From NCBI RefSeq assembly GCF_900129545.1, contig NZ_FQWB01000001.1:744001-808000 (forward strand): 64,000 nt of DNA, in the 5' to 3' direction. Position 1 is the first letter of the stretch. Each line of letters opens with the position of its first letter. This document shows positions 1,022 to 52,252 of this stretch, one piece after another. The stretch is from Flavobacterium fluvii (lineage in GTDB: Bacteria; Bacteroidota; Bacteroidia; Flavobacteriales; Flavobacteriaceae). Position numbers and translations under genes: made by a program. Under the pieces are notes generated by a model that saw only the letters and a list, made by a program, of their open reading frames with translations, made no database searches and was not told where the DNA came from.

Positions 1022-1972
1022 ATGAAAAAAAATCTCCTGATTCTAATTGTTCTCGTGCTTTCTGCCAATTTGTATTCTCAAAAGGACACTTTGAATGCAC
1101 CCAAAGCGGTGTTGCCGAACGTTTATGCCGATCCTCATATTGCCGCTTTCGGCAAGAAATTCTACATTTATCCAACGACCGATGGCTCCGAAGGATGGAA
1201 AGCCACGAGTTTTACCTGCTGGTCTTCCAATGATTTGGTGAAATGGAAATCCGAAAAAGTAATCCTGGATTTACCCAAAGACATCAGTTGGGCAAAAGAA
1301 CGGGCTTGGGCTCCGGCCATAGCTTACAAAAACGGAAAATATTATTACTATTTCTCGGCAGACGTGAATATTGGCGTGGGGGTTTCAGACAAACCAACTG
1401 GGCCTTTCAAAGATGCTTTGGGAGTTCCTTTGGCAAAAAAAGGAATGCTCAAAGGGCAAATGATCGACCCGATGGTTTTTGTTGATGATGATGGCTCGGC
1501 TTATTTATATTTTGGACAAGGCAATTGCAATATCGTAAAACTAAACGACGACATGATTTCGTATGATGCCACCAAAATTGTTTCCATCAAGCCAAAAGGC
1601 TACAACGAAGGTTCGTTCGTGTTCAAAAGAAACGGAAAATATTACCTGATGTGGTCGGAGTATGATACCCGTGATCCAAGATATTCGGTAGCTTATGCCA
1701 CTTCCGATTCGCCTATGGGCCCTTTTACAAAAGCGGAAGGTTTTCCAGTTTTGAAAGGTAAAGGCATCGTTAAAGGTGCCGGACATCATTCGGTTGTAAA
1801 AGTTCCCGGCAAAGATGAATGGTACATTTCGTATCACCGTTTCAAAATTCCTGACGGCAACGGCTACAATCGCGAAACCTGTATTTCGCCAATGCGATTT
1901 GACAAGGATGGTAATATTTTGCCGGTGGATGTTTTTGAAACAGTGAAACCGGTTAAAATTAAAGGGAAGTAA
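1022..1972 (+). CDS. Secreted glycoside hydrolase family 43 protein
   Basis: A 316-residue GH43 beta-propeller enzyme with a signal peptide (residues 1-19, cut before QKDT), so it acts in the periplasm or outside. The catalytic triad is visible: base Asp37 in YADPHI, pKa-modulating Asp149 in MIDPMVF, acid Glu196 in YNEGSF. Tandem position after another GH43 gene (18 bp gap) and before a GH51 arabinofuranosidase suggests arabinan or arabinoxylan side-chain removal. The gene may be cotranscribed with its upstream neighbour. The specific activity (arabinofuranosidase, arabinanase or xylosidase) cannot be told from sequence alone. Confidence 0.9.
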   Translation: MKKNLLILIVLVLSANLYSQKDTLNAPKAVLPNVYADPHIAAFGKKFYIYPTTDGSEGWKATSFTCWSSNDLVKWKSEKVILDLPKDISWAKERAWAPAIAYKNGKYYYYFSADVNIGVGVSDKPTGPFKDALGVPLAKKGMLKGQMIDPMVFVDDDGSAYLYFGQGNCNIVKLNDDMISYDATKIVSIKPKGYNEGSFVFKRNGKYYLMWSEYDTRDPRYSVAYATSDSPMGPFTKAEGFPVLKGKGIVKGAGHHSVVKVPGKDEWYISYHRFKIPDGNGYNRETCISPMRFDKDGNILPVDVFETVKPVKIKGK

Positions 1973-2054
1973 TAGTATTTAGATAATCCATGGTTAATTT
2001 ATATCCATCCATATTTGAGGTGTAATCGTCCATTTAATTTTCTAATGTAAACCC

Positions 2055-2062
2055 TATTTTTG
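2055..2062 (+). promoter_or_regulatory. Candidate -7 box for the GH51 gene
   Basis: TATTTTTG fits the Bacteroidota -7 consensus TAnnTTTG and lies about 40 bp before the GH51 start codon, in an AT-rich gap after the GH43 stop. No clear -33 TTG was found at the expected distance, so this rests on the -7 element only. Confidence 0.4.
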
Positions 2063-2103
2063 TGTTTGTAAAAAGAGACACCATAATAATCAAGAATAAA
2101 AAC

Positions 2104-4089
2104 ATGAAACACAATCTTATTTCAAAAATCACGCTTTGTGGTTTATTGTTTACCGGCTTTTTTGCCAATGCCCAAAAGACCACTTTGGAAGTTGATGTTA
2201 CAAAATCCATTACCAAAATCCAGCCAACGATGTTCGGCTTGTTTTTTGAAGACATCAATTTTGCCGCGGACGGAGGTTTGTATGCCGAAATGGTTAAAAA
2301 CCGTTCTTTTGAGTTTGACAAACCTTTGATGGGATGGGAACAACCCAATACTAAAAGACTTTCCCAAAACAAGCAATCGGGTTATGCGACGCCCATCAAT
2401 ATATTGGAAAATAAAACCAATCCTAATTTTTGCAGGGTTTTGGTTAATGATGACAAAGGATATGCCCTCGTTAATGAAGGATTCAGGGGAATGGGAGTCA
2501 AGAAAGACGCAAAATACAATCTTTCTTTAAAGGCTGCCAATCACGATGGTGCCATCAAAAAAATAATTGTCCAATTGATTGACAAAGACAAAAAAGTGTT
2601 GGGTGAAACCAGCATCATTCCAACATCGAATGCTTGGAAAACCTATTCCGCACAATTCACGGCGACCCAGACCGAAGCGAAAGCCAAATTGAAAATCACT
2701 TTCGAAGGAACGGGAACTATCGACTTGGACATGATTTCCTTGTTTCCGGAAGACACTTGGAAGAACAGAAAAAACGGCTTGCGCAAAGATATTGTGCAAC
2801 TTTTATATGACATGAAACCGGGTTTTTTGCGTTTTCCGGGTGGTTGCATTGTCGAAGGAAGAACTTTGGCAGATCGCTACCAATGGAAAAATTCGGTGGG
2901 CGAAATCGAGAACAGAAAAACGATGATCAACCGTTGGAATGTGGAGTTTCCTAAAAAACAAACACCCGATTATTTTCAAAGTTTTGGATTGGGATTTTTT
3001 GAATATTTCCAACTTTCCGAAGATATTGGCGCAGCAGCATTGCCGGTTTTGAGTTGCGGAATGGCATGCCAATACAATACGGGCGAATTGGCTCCAATAG
3101 AAGAATTAGACCCTTATGTACAAGATGCTTTGGACTTGATTGAATTTGCCAACGGTTCAGAAGCGACTGCTTGGGGAAAATTACGCTCGGATATGGGACA
3201 TCCAAAACCGTTTAATTTGAAATACATTGGTGTTGGAAACGAGCAATGGGGTCCCGATTACATCGAAAGATATAAAGTATTTGAAAAAGCCATAAAAGCA
3301 AAATATCCAAAAATTATTATTGTTTCCGGAAGTGGGCCATCGCCAGATGGAGAATATTTTGATTATGGAATGCAGGAGCTCAAAAAGTTGAATGCCGAAC
3401 TCGTGGACGAACATTATTATAAAAGTCCGCAATGGTTTAGGGATAATGCCACGCGTTACGACAATTACGACCGAAAAGGGCCTAAAGTATTTGCAGGTGA
3501 ATATGCTGCTCACAGTACAATTGATAATAATTTAATTACCAAAAACAACTGGGAATCTGCCTTTTCCGAAGCGGCTTTTATGACCGGATTGGAACGAAAT
3601 GCCGAAGTGGTTCACCTCACTTCTTATGCTCCGTTGATGGCACACGAAGAAGCTTGGCAATGGGCGCCGGACATGATTTGGTTCAACAATTTGGAAGCGT
3701 ATGGTTCGGCGAATTATCAAGTGCAAAAGTTGTTTGCCACCAACAAAGGAACCGATTTATTGGCCATTACCAATGACGGAAAACCGCTGACAGGACAAAA
3801 CAACCTCTATGCATCAGCCGTAAAAGATGTGAACACGAAAGAAGTAATCATAAAAGTGGTCAATACAACTGCCACGGAACAAGAAGTTACGGTTGATTTA
3901 AAAGGAAGTAAATTAGAATCCAAAGGAACTGTCATAACACTTGCCAGCCCGAATTTGACAGATGAAAACAGTTTTGCCACGCCCAAAAAAATCATCCCTA
4001 CAGAAAGCGAATATAAATTGAAAGGCGACAAGGCGCCAATGAATTTGCCTGCTTATTCGGTTACCGTTTTGAAACTGAAACTGAAATAA
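2104..4089 (+). CDS. Alpha-L-arabinofuranosidase, GH51 family
   Basis: GH51 retaining enzymes release terminal arabinofuranose from arabinan, arabinoxylan and arabinogalactan. The start is set at MKHNLISKI, which gives a clean signal peptide ending ...FFANAQ; the longer open frame adds a hydrophilic leader with no support. An N-terminal carbohydrate-binding-like beta domain (about residues 70-210) precedes the TIM barrel. The acid/base is Glu380 in GVGNEQWG and the nucleophile Glu466 in FAGEYAAH. A C-terminal beta-sandwich ends the 661-residue protein. It follows two GH43 genes, forming an arabinose-releasing trio, and ends at a hairpin facing the bacilliredoxin gene. Confidence 0.93.
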   Translation: MKHNLISKITLCGLLFTGFFANAQKTTLEVDVTKSITKIQPTMFGLFFEDINFAADGGLYAEMVKNRSFEFDKPLMGWEQPNTKRLSQNKQSGYATPINILENKTNPNFCRVLVNDDKGYALVNEGFRGMGVKKDAKYNLSLKAANHDGAIKKIIVQLIDKDKKVLGETSIIPTSNAWKTYSAQFTATQTEAKAKLKITFEGTGTIDLDMISLFPEDTWKNRKNGLRKDIVQLLYDMKPGFLRFPGGCIVEGRTLADRYQWKNSVGEIENRKTMINRWNVEFPKKQTPDYFQSFGLGFFEYFQLSEDIGAAALPVLSCGMACQYNTGELAPIEELDPYVQDALDLIEFANGSEATAWGKLRSDMGHPKPFNLKYIGVGNEQWGPDYIERYKVFEKAIKAKYPKIIIVSGSGPSPDGEYFDYGMQELKKLNAELVDEHYYKSPQWFRDNATRYDNYDRKGPKVFAGEYAAHSTIDNNLITKNNWESAFSEAAFMTGLERNAEVVHLTSYAPLMAHEEAWQWAPDMIWFNNLEAYGSANYQVQKLFATNKGTDLLAITNDGKPLTGQNNLYASAVKDVNTKEVIIKVVNTTATEQEVTVDLKGSKLESKGTVITLASPNLTDENSFATPKKIIPTESEYKLKGDKAPMNLPAYSVTVLKLKLK

Positions 4090-21976: not shown

Positions 21977-22096
21977 AATCGTAAAGTTTAGTGGTGTACT
22001 AAGTTACGGATTTTTAGATATTTAAAAAAGAAGTATGGTATTAGAAGTTTGTTGTGAGAAGTTTAGTCTTTTTTATGATGATTGGTTTTGTCTGCT

Positions 22097-22168
22097 CTCG
22101 TAAGTGGGCACAGTTTACTTCGTCAATTCGCTATTGCTCGTGTGCAAAACTGCGCCTTCCGTTACGAG
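22097..22168. repeat. Imperfect intergenic inverted repeat
   Basis: The arms ctcgtaagtgggcacagttt (22097-22116) and 22146-22168 pair imperfectly: ctcgtaa/ttacgag at the base and cagttt/aaaactg near the loop. The loop includes cacgagcaa when read on the minus strand, similar to the loop of the elements at 44586 and 47270. It lies in the 225-bp gap between the two hypothetical genes; the rest of the gap shows nothing else. Confidence 0.55.
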
Positions 22169-35472: not shown

Positions 35473-35785
35473 AATTCAGTTTAATTTTGGGCAAAAATAA
35501 GGAATTATTTATTGTCATTGCGAGGAACGTGATAAACAAGGTTCACGGAACACATTTGAAAATATTTACAAGTGAAGTAATCAAAAGCTATTTAGCTTCG
35601 CTAAATCTGTGATGTTCCACTATGCGTCATAATCTTTTGCCTCTTAAAGAAAAACTATAAAAATCTCCACTACTAGGAATTGCACACACATCAAGTAATA
35701 ATATAATTTATACCGATAATTGTGTAACATTCTTCGGCAACTATAAAGCTAATTTAGCCATTATTAATTTTAAATAAATATTAGG
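35473..35785. other. Intergenic region with decayed repeats
   Basis: This 313-bp gap holds tgtcattgcgaggaacg at 35513-35529, which resembles the left arm of the 47270 element, and a decayed copy (35587-35678) of the repeat at 36296-36378. No start codon with coding support or RNA gene was found. The final 60 bp lead the small lipoprotein gene. Confidence 0.6.
35587..35678. repeat. Degenerate copy of the 36296-36378 repeat
   Basis: The core aatcttttgcctcttaaag followed by aaaa...ctccactactagg parallels aatcttttgctttttaaag...ttcactactatcggg in the downstream copy, in the same orientation. The two copies flank the 139-residue lipoprotein gene as direct repeats. Confidence 0.6.
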
Positions 35786-40904: not shown

Positions 40905-40909
40905 AAAAG

Positions 40910-40961
40910 TTAATCGGTTAATTGTTTAATCGATTAACCGGTTAAATAATTAACCGATTAA
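40910..40961. repeat. Hairpin with repeated ttaatcggttaa motifs
   Basis: A perfect 14-bp pair (40910-40923 with 40948-40961) encloses two further palindromes, taatcgatta and aaccggtt. The region is built of taatcg and ttaacc units in alternate orientation. It lies between the TPR gene and the DUF4286 gene and may terminate the former. Confidence 0.65.
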
Positions 40962-44412: not shown

Positions 44413-44724
44413 TTTTTGGGCATTCCCACGCTTCCACTATCGTTCCAGCGTGGTCGGGCTGTACGTTCCCGCTTTTTTTGAGGTGAAGAAAAATTGCCTC
44501 AAAAAAGAGCTCCACTGCCATCCCTAATGCGAAAGAGCAACTTGTACGAATTGGTATTATACAGTGCTCATTGCGTTATATTTCGTTTGTCACGCTGGAA
44601 GCGTCTCAACGCACGAGAGCAACATAATTGAGACGCTTCCAGCGTGACAAATAGCAAAAATAAAGTATTACTATAAATATTCAGAAACACCAAATCTGGA
44701 ATCTTCATTCAAAAATCTACAATT
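44413..44724. other. Repeat-rich intergenic region after proC
   Basis: This 312-bp gap has no gene. It holds a cgtggtcgggctg-type repeat with an internal stem (ttttttgagg 44474-44483 with cctcaaaaaa 44497-44506), then the 66-bp perfect inverted repeat at 44586-44651. Confidence 0.7.
44586..44651. repeat. Perfect 24-bp inverted repeat with conserved loop
   Basis: Arms 44586-44609 and 44628-44651 are perfectly complementary. The 18-nt loop contains acgagagcaac (44613-44623). The arms end in TGTCA/TGACA, and aatag follows. The element at 47270-47339 has the same loop motif and the same ends, with otherwise different 24-bp arms. Confidence 0.85.
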
Positions 44725-45675
44725 TTGAACACAACCATAAAAATCCTCCACATCGACAGCAATCATCCCATACTTTGGGGACAATTGCAAGAAGCAGGAT
44801 TTACCAACCACGAAGATTTCACTTCTTCCAAAGCGGAAATTGAAGCCAAAATCCAAGAATATCAAGGCATCGTTATCCGTAGCCGATTCAAAATCGACCA
44901 AACATTTCTGGATAAAGCCACCAATTTGCAATTCATTGCCCGTGTTGGTGCTGGTTTGGAAAGCATCGATTGTGAATACGCCTTATCCAAAAACATTCAA
45001 CTGATTGCCGCACCGGAAGGAAACCGAAATGCCGTTGCCGAGCATTCTTTGGGAATGATTTTGTCGCTTTTCAACAATTTGAACCAAGCCGACAGCGAAA
45101 TAAAATCAGGACATTGGAACCGGGAAAAAAACCGTGGTCACGAACTCGACGGAAAAACCGTGGGCATCATTGGTTACGGAAACATGGGAAAATCTTTTGC
45201 CAAAAAACTGAGAGGTTTTGAGGTGGAAGTCTTGTGTTACGACATTCTGGAAAACGTTGGTGATGAAAATGCAAGACAAGTTTCACTTCAGGAATTACAA
45301 CAAAAAACCGATGTCTTGAGTCTGCATATTCCTTGGACTCCCGAAACGAACAAAATGATAAACACCGATTTCATCAATGCTTTTGCCAAACCGTTCTGGA
45401 TTATAAACACTTCCAGAGGGAAAAACATTGTCACTGCCGATTTGGTCGAAGCGATGAAAACCAAGAAAGTTCTCGGTGCGGGCTTGGACGTATTGGAATA
45501 CGAAAAATTGTCTTTTGAAACCCTTTTTCAAGACAAAGAAACACCAGAAGCTTTCCAATATTTGTTGAATGCAAAAAATGTAATTCTAACGCCACACATC
45601 GCCGGCTGGACATTTGAAAGCCACGAACGACTGGCGCAGGTTATTGTCGATAAAATCAAGAGATTGTATTTTTAG
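44725..45675 (+). CDS. D-2-hydroxyacid dehydrogenase, phosphoglycerate dehydrogenase-like
   Basis: A 316-residue NAD-dependent dehydrogenase. The substrate domain has IVIRSRFKIDQTFLDKATNLQFIARVGAGLESID, the NAD fold has GIIGYGNMGKSFAKKL, and the catalytic Arg-Glu-His set lies in INTSRGKNIV, AGLDVLEYE and LTPHIAGWT. The chain lacks the ACT domains of long SerA and fits the short group. The start is TTG; no ATG is in frame nearby upstream. It may make serine precursors or act on other 2-hydroxyacids. Confidence 0.88.
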   Translation: MNTTIKILHIDSNHPILWGQLQEAGFTNHEDFTSSKAEIEAKIQEYQGIVIRSRFKIDQTFLDKATNLQFIARVGAGLESIDCEYALSKNIQLIAAPEGNRNAVAEHSLGMILSLFNNLNQADSEIKSGHWNREKNRGHELDGKTVGIIGYGNMGKSFAKKLRGFEVEVLCYDILENVGDENARQVSLQELQQKTDVLSLHIPWTPETNKMINTDFINAFAKPFWIINTSRGKNIVTADLVEAMKTKKVLGAGLDVLEYEKLSFETLFQDKETPEAFQYLLNAKNVILTPHIAGWTFESHERLAQVIVDKIKRLYF

Positions 45676-45701
45676 TCTCTTTTAGGGTTTAATTTGAATT
45701 G

Positions 45702-45729
45702 CCTTTGGTTTTTAACCAAAGGGTTTTTT
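45702..45729 (+). terminator. Rho-independent terminator
   Basis: cctttggtt (45702-45710) and aaccaaagg (45714-45722) form a perfect stem with a 3-nt loop, followed by gttttttat. It ends the 2-hydroxyacid dehydrogenase gene. Confidence 0.88.
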
Positions 45730-45870
45730 ATGCATTATTTTGCATTAAATAACACTATTTTTCTGTAAAATTATTATATTAGCGGGCACAATGGAGTTCA
45801 GAAACCAAAAAAACGAGGAGTGTCCGAAAATCCACAAGAGTAGGTGTTATCAACTAAATATTTTTTAATT

Positions 45871-46362
45871 ATGATTGAATGGTACAAAAAAGTGGTTTTT
45901 GAAAACTACGCAAATTTTAATGGAAGAGCCAGAAGAAGCGAGTATTGGTATTTTGTATTAATGAATATGATTATATCGACCATCACAATGATGTTTGATA
46001 AGATATTAGGGATAAAATTTGGTGTGAATTTATTATATGGTATTGCAGTGTTTATCCCAACTTTGTCAGTATCGGTAAGAAGATTGCATGATATTGGTAA
46101 AAGCGGTTGGATATTGCTAATTTCATATATTACTATCATTATTTGTGCAGTAGGTTTGGTTCTTGGGATGTTGACATTAGGGACTTCTTCTTTTAATATT
46201 TGGTTTACTATCCCAATTATAGTTATGGTTGCTATTTGTATTTGGATGTTAGTTCTTTTTGTTACAGAAGGTAATGATGGGAAGAATAAATATGGTTCAG
46301 ATCCTAAAAATATTTTTGACGAGGATGACGAAATAGATGAAATTGGTACAGCTGAAGCTTAA
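45871..46362 (+). CDS. DUF805 membrane protein
   Basis: A 163-residue membrane protein beginning MIEWYKKVVFENYANFNGRARRSEYWYFVL, the typical DUF805 N terminus. Four membrane helices follow, with the family segment SVRRLHDIGKSGW and a C-terminal KYGSDPKNIF then an acidic tail. ATG at 45871 is chosen over an upstream GTG. Function unknown; it is first of three small membrane protein genes (DUF805, DUF4234, DUF2752). The 80-bp leader contains gggcac...gtgtcc, a weak stem. Confidence 0.9.
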   Translation: MIEWYKKVVFENYANFNGRARRSEYWYFVLMNMIISTITMMFDKILGIKFGVNLLYGIAVFIPTLSVSVRRLHDIGKSGWILLISYITIIICAVGLVLGMLTLGTSSFNIWFTIPIIVMVAICIWMLVLFVTEGNDGKNKYGSDPKNIFDEDDEIDEIGTAEA

Positions 46363-46435
46363 TTAAAATTCAAAAAATAATACAAAGCTTACGATAATTT
46401 TTATATTTTTACCCAAAACAAATAACTGAAAATCA

Positions 46436-46819
46436 ATGGAAACCACAAAACCTGAAGCTTGGAACACCCCAAATAATCCAATACCTGTATTCAAAGTCGA
46501 TCCAATTTTAGTATTGCTCTTCGGATTTATAACTTGCGGATTGTACTTAATTTATTGGAATATTAAAATAGCCGAAGTGTTGAACGCAGTGGCAGAACGG
46601 GAAGTTATTTCGACGCCAATTGCTGTTTTTGCTGGATGTTGTTTTCCCGTAAATATTTATTTCTTTTATTTGGCGGGAAAAGACGGATTGCCGCAAGTGT
46701 ATAGACGAATTGGTTATCCACAGAAAGACGATTCAACGTTATTGATAATTTTAGGGTTTTTCTTTCCAATGGCGGCAGCAATGATTGTTCAAAATGACAT
46801 CAACAAGTTATACAATTAA
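46436..46819 (+). CDS. DUF4234-like membrane protein
   Basis: A 127-residue protein with a soluble N terminus and about three membrane helices: PILVLLFGFITCGLYLIYWNIKIAEVLN (the DUF4234 hallmark LxxxTxGxYxxYWxxK), then FAGCCFPVNIYFFYLAGKDGLPQVYRRIG and LLIILGFFFPMAAAMIVQNDINKLY. Function unknown. Its 3' end overlaps the next gene by 26 bp. Confidence 0.8.
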   Translation: METTKPEAWNTPNNPIPVFKVDPILVLLFGFITCGLYLIYWNIKIAEVLNAVAEREVISTPIAVFAGCCFPVNIYFFYLAGKDGLPQVYRRIGYPQKDDSTLLIILGFFFPMAAAMIVQNDINKLYN

Positions 46820-47258
46820 TACCCAATCCAAACGTAAAATTTACGGAATCATCGGCGCATTTATCACGCTGATGGTTCCGTTTTTTTTAATCTTTTTTGA
46901 ACAGGGCAATCATCTCGAAACGGCTCAATCCCTATGTCCTTTGAAGTTGCTTACCGGTTTTCCGTGTCCAGGTTGCGGAATAACGAAATCCTTGGTATAT
47001 TTTTACGAAGGGGATTTGCAAAAAAGCCTGTATTATCACATTTTGGGACCATTCGTGATTCTGTTTTGCCTAGTTGCAATTGGAGTTCTTGCCACGGAAT
47101 TAATAACGAAGAAGGAATATTTCAACTCGTTGCTTTTCAACAAAAAATTGGCGTATGGATTGGCAATCTTTCTGGCGGCTTATCATTTTATAAGAATCAT
47201 TTATTTCATCAACAACAATTCCATTGACGACATTTTGCGTCAGTCGATTTGGAGGTAA
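46794..47258 (+). CDS. DUF2752 membrane protein
   Basis: A 154-residue protein with three membrane helices and the DUF2752 signature CPLKLLTGFPCPGCGITKSLVYF in the first loop. The family is uncharacterised but very conserved in Bacteroidota. ATG at 46794 lies inside the preceding gene in another frame; the 26-bp overlap implies coupled translation. Confidence 0.88.
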   Translation: MTSTSYTINTQSKRKIYGIIGAFITLMVPFFLIFFEQGNHLETAQSLCPLKLLTGFPCPGCGITKSLVYFYEGDLQKSLYYHILGPFVILFCLVAIGVLATELITKKEYFNSLLFNKKLAYGLAIFLAAYHFIRIIYFINNNSIDDILRQSIWR

Positions 47259-47269
47259 ATATATCTTTG

Positions 47270-47339
47270 TGTCATTTCGACGAAGGAGAAATCACATAAC
47301 GAGAGCAACTAATGAGATTTCTCCTTCGTCGAAATGACA
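47270..47339. repeat. Perfect 24-bp inverted repeat with conserved loop
   Basis: Arms 47270-47293 and 47316-47339 are perfectly complementary; the 22-nt loop contains acgagagcaac (47299-47309). Outer ends are TGTCA/TGACA and aatag follows, as at 44586-44651, while the inner arm sequence differs. It lies between convergent genes and could terminate both. Confidence 0.88.
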
Positions 47340-47353
47340 AATAGTAGAGGGAA

Positions 47354-52184: not shown

Positions 52185-52222
52185 GTCACGGTTTTCATTC
52201 TAGTGAGACTGAAAACCGTGAC
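52185..52222. repeat. Inverted repeat with tandem gaaaaccgtgact units
   Basis: gtcacggttttca (52185-52197) pairs with tgaaaaccgtgac (52210-52222). Two further gaaaa(c)c(g)tgact units follow to about 52248. It lies between convergent genes and can act as a terminator for both. Confidence 0.65.
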
Positions 52223-52252
52223 TGAAAACCGTGACTGAAAACTGAGACTTTT

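Follow-up and report, generated by a model that had tools for sequence, protein, structure and literature searches.

In the 64,000-nucleotide stretch of Flavobacterium fluvii DNA analyzed here (positions 744,001 to 808,000 of contig NZ_FQWB01000001.1, from a genome of 4.13 Mb; hereafter, the window), two long inverted repeats are head-to-head pairs of repetitive extragenic palindromic (REP) sequences carrying a TGTC tag, and belong to a Bacteroidota branch of the CGTC/TGTC superfamily. They are copies of a real, dispersed element of known kind, the TGTC REP dimer, which bears a strong mutational signature, consisting of arm matching together with the inversion of spacers. In the open-access literature that we searched, we did not find this signature described for TGTC REPs. 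Most probably, the arms of these dimers have been kept matched, and their spacers inverted, by polymerase template switching between the arms, while a small hairpin within each arm has been retained.

The first inverted repeat (44586 to 44651, plus strand) has 24-bp arms of 100% complementarity around an 18-nt loop; its REP pair, of the CGCTGG type, spans 44588 to 44649 on the plus strand and consists of TGTCACGCTGGAAGCGTCTCAA, the loop CGCACGAGAGCAACATAA and the mirror arm, each arm being itself a hairpin with a GNA triloop (ACGCT-GGA-AGCGT). The second (47265 to 47344) shows 91% complementarity over 33 nt around a 14-nt loop and encloses perfect 24-bp arms at 47270 to 47293 and 47316 to 47339; the corresponding REP pair, of the TTTCGA type, lies between convergent open reading frames (ORFs) at 47270 to 47339 on the plus strand and consists of TGTCATTTCGACGAAGGAGAAATC, ACATAACGAGAGCAACTAATGA and the mirror arm. 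The two elements top the list of 24 inverted-repeat pairs obtained from the whole window, and when they are folded as single-stranded DNA, their z scores are -10.7 and -10.8, with 0 of 200 shuffles folding equally well. The perfect 24-bp arms reported by a first-pass annotation of the sequence were found in both, as were the loop motif ACGAGAGCAAC in the same orientation (44613 to 44623 and 47299 to 47309, plus strand), the TGTCA/TGACA bounds and the AATAG that follows each element.

Matched arms and inverted spacers

The two arms of an element match each other more often than shuffled arms do. Among the elements with a class-I loop and readable cores, the two arm cores are identical in 56 of 86 (mean of 26.7 and maximum of 35 when all cores are shuffled), and with shuffling confined to single genomes, 55 of 84 identical cores are observed against a mean of 37.6 and a maximum of 46 over 5,000 shuffles.

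We then considered 188 unique elements, pooled from all searches and not a random sample, and retained 32 orthologous pairs in which both flanks align over at least 150 bp at an identity of at least 72%. The loop has the same orientation in 16 of these pairs, is inverted in 8 and is unscoreable in 8. By locus, it is inverted at 5 of the 11 scoreable loci, or at 6 of 12 if the weakly scored L264/L271 is included. The inverted loci are L001/L302, L002/L305, L005, L091 and L224 versus L230, L008/L093, L106/L112 and, weakly, L264/L271; those with the same orientation are L007, L119 and L232, L089/L239, L107, L116, L126 and L280, L161/L165, L259/L270, and L278/L283. By eye, the orientation is also the same in two unscored sets, L006/L119 (the 44588 element) and L040/L287/L304, and an additional locus that aligns mainly on one side is inverted (L036 and L095 versus L097 and L099). 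Both window elements have orthologous copies: that of the 44588 element, in Flavobacterium sp. ES-bin-45 (L119), occupies the same site in the same orientation with one loop base changed, and those of the 47270 element, likewise in the same orientation, are found in L119 and in L232.

Two inverted copies keep the particular spacers of their loci. L230 carries the TGATG spacer variant of its locus (L005/L091/L224) in the inverted orientation, and in L002 the spacer variant of L305 is kept and its orientation inverted, which argues that the spacer has turned in place. Across 120 elements, TG follows GAGCAAC in 14. Furthermore, the arms can change in pairs at orthologous sites. In particular, CCAACGG/CCGTTGG in L092 and L112 corresponds to CCATCGG/CCGATGG in L106; L280 differs from L107 and L116 by five changes that are mirrored in both arms, the loop being kept; and between L008 and L093 (GACGAAGG versus GATAAAGG) the arms have changed as a matched set and the loop is inverted.

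The first-pass annotation had regarded the loop as fixed, and this view could not be maintained. On the 30 loci of an arm-only search, one per Flavobacterium genome, GAGAGCAAC occurs with at most one mismatch in 8, another loop is present in 20, and 2 were not parsed by the script, one of which (L188) carries the loop motif. Since related genomes share the loop and many others carry different ones, it is a lineage-specific spacer. It also grows by tandem duplication, as in L098, L103, L305 and L304.

The hairpin within each arm and the dispersal of the copies

Each arm follows the plan TGTC-ATTnC-GA-core-GA-GnAAT, which corresponds to a mini-hairpin capped in most cases by a GNA triloop, a loop unusually stable in DNA. 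The TGTC tag (among 183 elements, 92% have T at position -1, ahead of GTCA, and 93% have A following TGAC) is unpaired inside the single REP hairpin and paired in the large palindrome. Of 268 sites conforming to the frame TGTCATTnCGA-core-GAGnAAT, 258 have a core that begins and ends with complementary bases (C-G 230, G-C 18, A-T 10); taking distinct cores, 44 of 52 have complementary end bases, against a mean of 21.2 and a maximum of 32 in shuffles. Of the five-nucleotide cores, 161 of 177 contain a GNA triloop (GAA 142, GCA 13, GGA 3, GTA 3). Stem position 7, which distinguishes TTTCGA, TTCCGA and TTGCGA, is complementary to its partner in 289 of 293 cases (T-A 248, C-G 30, G-C 11), the other 48 of 341 head matches having no partner of the searched form. 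The covariation that the first-pass annotation had proposed to look for in the stems is strong in the arm mini-hairpins, and it supports selection on the folded form at the level of the small REP hairpin inside each arm. A lone DNA arm of the 44588 type (ACGCT-GGA-AGCGT), which has the same plan and another stem, folds with z = -2.5; a lone TTTCGA arm gives z = 0.2 with standard DNA parameters, so that the single-arm folding of this main type rests on covariation and not on computed energy.

Copies are numerous in the genome of F. fluvii. With up to three mismatches allowed, we found 15 arm matches for GTCATTTCGACGAAGGAGAAATC (TTTCGA type), 17 for GTCATTGCGAGGAACGAAGCAATC (TTGCGA type) and 7 for GTCACGCTGGAAGCGTCTCAA (CGCTGG type), and none for any of the reversed patterns used as controls; the case of only two copies in the genome, which would have spoken against a family, therefore did not occur. 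Head-to-head pairs include 14 of the 15 TTTCGA matches, and no two of the 17 TTGCGA matches pair together. The exact CGAGAGCAAC occurs at nine sites in the genome, eight of them in or beside TGTC REPs and one (L003) elsewhere. One of the two sites previously suggested as decayed members is indeed a lone half REP of the TTGCGA type (TGTCATTGCGAGGAACG, 35513 to 35529, plus strand), with neither the 3' half nor a partner. The other, near 22130, is not a TGTC element: a REP of a different family (GCGCAG...GTGCCC) is followed there by ACGAGAGCAG, and the feature as a whole (22092 to 22155, minus strand; GCGCAG...GTGCCCA, then CTTACGAGAGCAGAC) is a relative of the REP flanking a transposase gene of the same genome and has the same adjacent motif.

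More widely, the arm-only search found head-to-head pairs in 31 of 150 Flavobacterium genomes and in 35 of 395 Bacteroidota genomes from 16 of 170 genera, with no match of the reversed control among the rows listed. One genome search scored 150 of approximately 1,900 to 3,400 first-look candidates per genome and listed both strands of each palindrome, so that the number of its matches does not equal the number of elements. The 24-mer GAGAAATCACATAACGAGAGCAAC was found in 53 stretches from contigs of named genomes, whose titles read Flavobacterium (29), Flavobacteriaceae bacterium (7), Lutibacter (2), uncultured Bacteroidetes (4) and Lentimicrobium (11). Because this query prescribes the loop and one tail, the conservation of the loop was assessed with the arm-only searches. 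An exact search of viral contigs with the same 24-mer gave no match. The Lentimicrobium titles (L076, L086, L087, L089, L090, L097, L107, L109, L112, L124 and L127, all JAEMQE) suggested a spread across orders, which we did not accept, as at least four of these records look Flavobacteriaceae-like. In the four that were compared, L097 is 89% identical to F. fluvii DNA over 1.5 kb, and both flanks of L089, L107 and L112 align with Flavobacterium or Flavobacteriaceae loci, so that this metagenome-assembled genome appears to be mixed.

Some variants of the arrangement were also observed. Five REP pairs form a tandem array in L298 (G169:C1:1490000-1491800), approximately 132 bp apart and with similar DNA between them, and in several pairs (L095, L040, L126 and others) one arm is replaced by a longer form of the REP that contains an additional internal hairpin (e.g., GGAGACCCGAGAGCTTAGCTCGAACAGGCGAAGCAAATC). 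Within the window, an inverted repeat GTCACGG...CCGTGAC with a second copy of its right arm (52185 to 52235) is GTCA tagged like the TGTC REPs, and an adjacent palindrome at 40909 to 40961 is made of TTAATCGGTTAA-type repeats, with arms 88% complementary and no spacer. Two RNA families exceed their gathering scores in the window: Flavo-1 (RF01705; 44448 to 44535, minus strand; 53.9 bits versus 42), just upstream of the 44588 element, and DUF805 (RF03081; 45786 to 45850, plus strand; 52.8 bits versus 51.1), at the start of a 172-codon ORF.

Proposed template switching and alternative explanations

In the mechanism that we propose, each arm is kept as a mini-hairpin, with a 5-bp stem, tandem GA/GA and a C-GNA-G cap, a form that would fit recognition as single-stranded DNA by some protein. 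The two arms make up a palindrome of 24 to 30 bp around the lineage-specific spacer, and during replication the polymerase would switch template between them. A switch within an arm would copy one arm onto the other, so that the stems could drift and yet tend to stay paired; a switch spanning the spacer would turn it round; and the turnover of arms around an inherited spacer would lead to different stems with a shared loop. We infer the switching step, the binding of the single strand by a protein and the original dispersal of the elements.

The reading of the large palindrome as a by-product of copying follows from the fact that arm homogenization and spacer inversion are outcomes of polymerase template switching between inverted repeats, as described for yeast genes in extracts of PMC8604942. 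Both were observed here, namely, in-cis arm matching above background, although incomplete, and inversion of the spacer at orthologous sites. We therefore regard the large palindrome as paired largely through copying, and the small REP hairpin as the part under selection. Stems that differ and remain paired around a fixed loop had been attributed in the first-pass annotation either to selection on the fold or to repeated repair of the arms. Each of the two is supported, at a different level: the fold, by covariation, in the small REP hairpin; the repair, by matched arms, paired changes and inverted spacers, in the large palindrome. Two parts of that reading fail: the premise of the fixed loop and, as described below, the linked transposase.

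Several observations weigh against this interpretation. The arm cores are unlike in 44 of the 116 elements with readable cores, all loop classes included, which represent heterodimers and mosaics. The last base of the palindrome before the loop (CnCAT) is paired in 46, unpaired in 40 and unreadable in 31 of 117 class-I elements; as it is unpaired in 40 of the 86 readable cases, the matching of the arms does not extend all the way to the loop. Template switching alone does not account for the wholesale replacement of stems (CGCTGG versus TTTCGA arms), and the replacement of one loop class by another at a single locus (L160 versus L107; L184 versus L123) goes beyond it; where stem type or loop class has been replaced at one site (L160, L184, L001/L302), an exchange with other copies is possible. 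Moreover, some orthologous alignments stop 100 to 185 bp from the element, no clean empty site was found (nine candidates were all false or tandem-array cases), and no population-level flip was seen in the genome data. The F. fluvii region C13:617600-619600 lacks the element present in L122, and its flank is too diverged for a footprint.

A first alternative is that these elements are REPINs (REP doublets forming hairpins) moved in trans by a resident REP-associated tyrosine transposase (RAYT), which would recognize ACGAGAGCAA as single-stranded DNA next to a hairpin of arbitrary sequence and thereby constrain the loop and leave the stems free. We consider it unlikely. The F. fluvii genome contains three RAYT-like genes and one stronger match to a Y1 transposase. 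The three genes, in open frames of 183 to 208 amino acids with WQ and YIH[NL]NP motifs, are flanked by inverted REPs of other sequences (GCTAGTGCGAGC..., GTTAGCGCAG..., CCGCAAAGTC...). The argument for this explanation is that ACGAGAGCAA is common to the TGTC REP loops and to the left end of one RAYT in this genome, and that similar stretches, AACGAGAGCAAAC and AACGAGAGCAGGC, follow the left REP of the RAYTs in L155 and L308. Against it, no TGTC REP lies within 350 bp of any of the 47 RAYT-like loci that we took from many genomes, contrary to the linked transposase that the first-pass annotation had envisaged, and in 36 of the 47 the two flanks share an exact inverted match of 14 nt or more, with a sequence other than the TGTC REP. 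A looser pattern over approximately 1.5 kb detected unpaired heads near 4 of 54 Y1 loci (L011, L014, L025 and L145, with two heads each in L025 and L145) and no flanking pair. Similarly, a Y1 transposase was found in 26 of the 31 genomes with pairs and in 82 of the 119 without (Fisher P = 0.12), and was not detected in the remaining 5 of the 31.

The motif ACGAGAGCAR occurs at 16 sites in the F. fluvii genome: eight are in or beside TGTC REPs, three follow a GCGCAG...GTGCCYA REP, and five lie in open frames of 380 to 518 codons. One of the three is the RAYT left end (L047/L355) and another is located at 22092 to 22101 of the window (minus strand); two of the sites next to REPs, L356 and L365, are also covered by open frames (251 and 224 codons, respectively). 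The reversed motif, taken as a control, gives 11 sites, whose contexts were not inspected. For GAGCAA[AC] within 350 bp of RAYT genes, matches are scattered and no clear excess was seen, no background having been computed. A stretch containing GAGCA is present in the left REPs of L046, L047, L155, L308, L309 and L327 and absent from those of L022, L025, L156 and L330; the two left REPs of L156 lack the motif even though that genome has class-I loops, and by eye the loops of two other lineages (L025 and L335) are unlike their RAYT-end sequence. The RAYT loci (L046, L047, L048 and others) display several distinct families of flanking REPs, and at some of them the left REP is followed by a AACGAGAGCAAAC stretch that is partly conserved. 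That orphan TGTC REPs are mobilized in trans by a Bacteroidota RAYT recognizing ACGAGAGCAA next to any GNA-capped single-stranded mini-hairpin is, in this specific form, quite unlikely; if true, it would explain free stems and a constant loop in one step and supply the transposase that the CGTC/TGTC superfamily lacks. The RAYT link is putative, and the motif beside the RAYT's own REP, a likeness between sequences, may be taken as a candidate lead to that enzyme.

Independent insertions at a shared hot spot, or the exchange of the resident copy for another one, would produce loops of random orientation, and flips at about half of the scoreable loci are what they too would predict, as is the different loop class or REP type at some loci (L160, L184, L001/L302). 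By eye, however, the boundaries are identical in most orthologous sets, inverted copies share spacer variants (L005/L091/L224 and L230; L002 and L305), and mosaic intermediates such as L099 exist, which makes this explanation improbable.

A selected function of the large hairpin in the host, such as transcription end, protection of mRNA 3' ends or nucleoid binding, is suggested by the strong folds of the window elements and by their gene setting, as derived from ORFs and not from annotated genes. The elements sit just past stop codons (median distance of 55 bp over 199 ORF ends), and of the 188, 50 lie between convergent, 99 between co-directional and 10 between divergent ORFs, with 23 overlapping an ORF (some of these ORFs being spurious) and 6 located at an edge; among the neighboring ORF pairs of these loci, 106 are convergent, 338 co-directional and 63 divergent. 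However, the 3' flank is A rich (A in 93% at +1, 78% at +2 and 77% at +3) and the 5' flank T rich, which yields the same pattern on the other strand. As A runs follow the hairpin, and not the T/U run of an intrinsic terminator, a canonical terminator is unlikely. On the elements of five loci, every Rfam match stayed below the gathering score of its family; a permissive threshold returned on the hairpins only subthreshold matches to microRNA families and one Streptococcus small RNA. Together with the patchy presence of the pairs among Flavobacterium genomes and the frequent lack of pairing at CnCAT, this renders a host function quite improbable as the reason for the large hairpin. Finally, although segments bounded by inverted repeats occur in both orientations, an inverton, in which a site-specific recombinase inverts the spacer between the arms, is very improbable, as the spacer measures only about 14 to 30 nt, arm sequences vary between copies and arm homogenization would not be expected.

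Relation to known systems

The CGTC/TGTC-tagged REP superfamily, as presented in the available text of Di Nocera et al. (2013; PMC3733652), consists mostly of head-to-head homo- or heterodimers, has Bacteroidetes among its hosts and lacks a dedicated transposase. The Flavobacterium elements share with it the terminal tag, unpaired in the single REP, and the predominance of head-to-head dimers (for the TTTCGA type). A palindromic unit opening with A-T and T-A pairs may be a further trait in common: ATT...AAT is present in the TTTCGA, TTGCGA and TTCCGA arms, where the search pattern required it, and the 44588 element starts with A-T followed by C-G. The result for the 47 RAYT-like loci agrees with the statement in that text on the missing transposase, our search having addressed RAYTs among the transposase classes. 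Different from the 8- to 9-bp stems, 4- to 5-nt loops and 3-nt tails, mostly CCA, given there, we found a 5-bp stem plus GA/GA plus 1 to 2 bp, mostly 3-nt loops and mostly CACAT tails, although stems may be counted differently in PMC3733652; the superfamily is named by its tag and not by these lengths. The text available from that paper does not mention a conserved motif in the spacer, inverted spacers or arm turnover in cis, all of them features of the Flavobacterium elements.

The likeness to the Pseudomonas REPINs, as far as the available portion of PMC3116915 describes them, lies in a pair of inverted REPs that enclose a spacer and are predicted to form a single hairpin, as the window elements do, and in compensatory changes. 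Those REPINs have a linked RAYT, and their REPs are better conserved than the spacer, whereas in Flavobacterium the spacer motif is shared among relatives and no cognate RAYT flanked by the same REP was found among the 47 loci. With RAYT subclass 2.6 and the atypical REPs of Bacteroidetes (extracts of PMC6006769), the F. fluvii RAYT-like genes share motifs and inverted-REP flanks, the subclass being judged by motif only and not by a tree; one RAYT left end carries ACGAGAGCAA, and the flanking REPs differ from the TGTC REP. A search of the open-access literature on Flavobacterium RAYTs, REPs or palindromic repeats, also with the REP sequences as terms, gave no description of TGTC REP pairs; in the parts seen, two papers on F. 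columnare deal with REP-PCR typing and CRISPR, and PMC12306157 (RepRanger) counts REP candidates in two Flavobacterium genomes and gives no sequences.

Template switching has been described for inverted repeats in yeast coding genes and in RNA genes, with arm homogenization and spacer inversion in the former (PMC8604942) and the maintenance of stems as a further possible effect (PMC8794818), according to the extracts of both papers; the Flavobacterium case would concern a dispersed bacterial REP family. Since matched arms and inverted spacers point to a copying mechanism, our results suggest that a long palindrome can be perfectly paired even if its long hairpin is not under selection; the small GNA-capped hairpins of the arms, in contrast, do appear to be selected. 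The way in which CGTC/TGTC REPs spread has been an open question since their description without a transposase in the text consulted of PMC3733652, and the motif common to the TGTC loops and the RAYT's own REP offers a testable candidate for the missing enzyme. For such questions the Flavobacterium copies are informative, because a good number of them lie at orthologous loci, where the changes can be read one by one.

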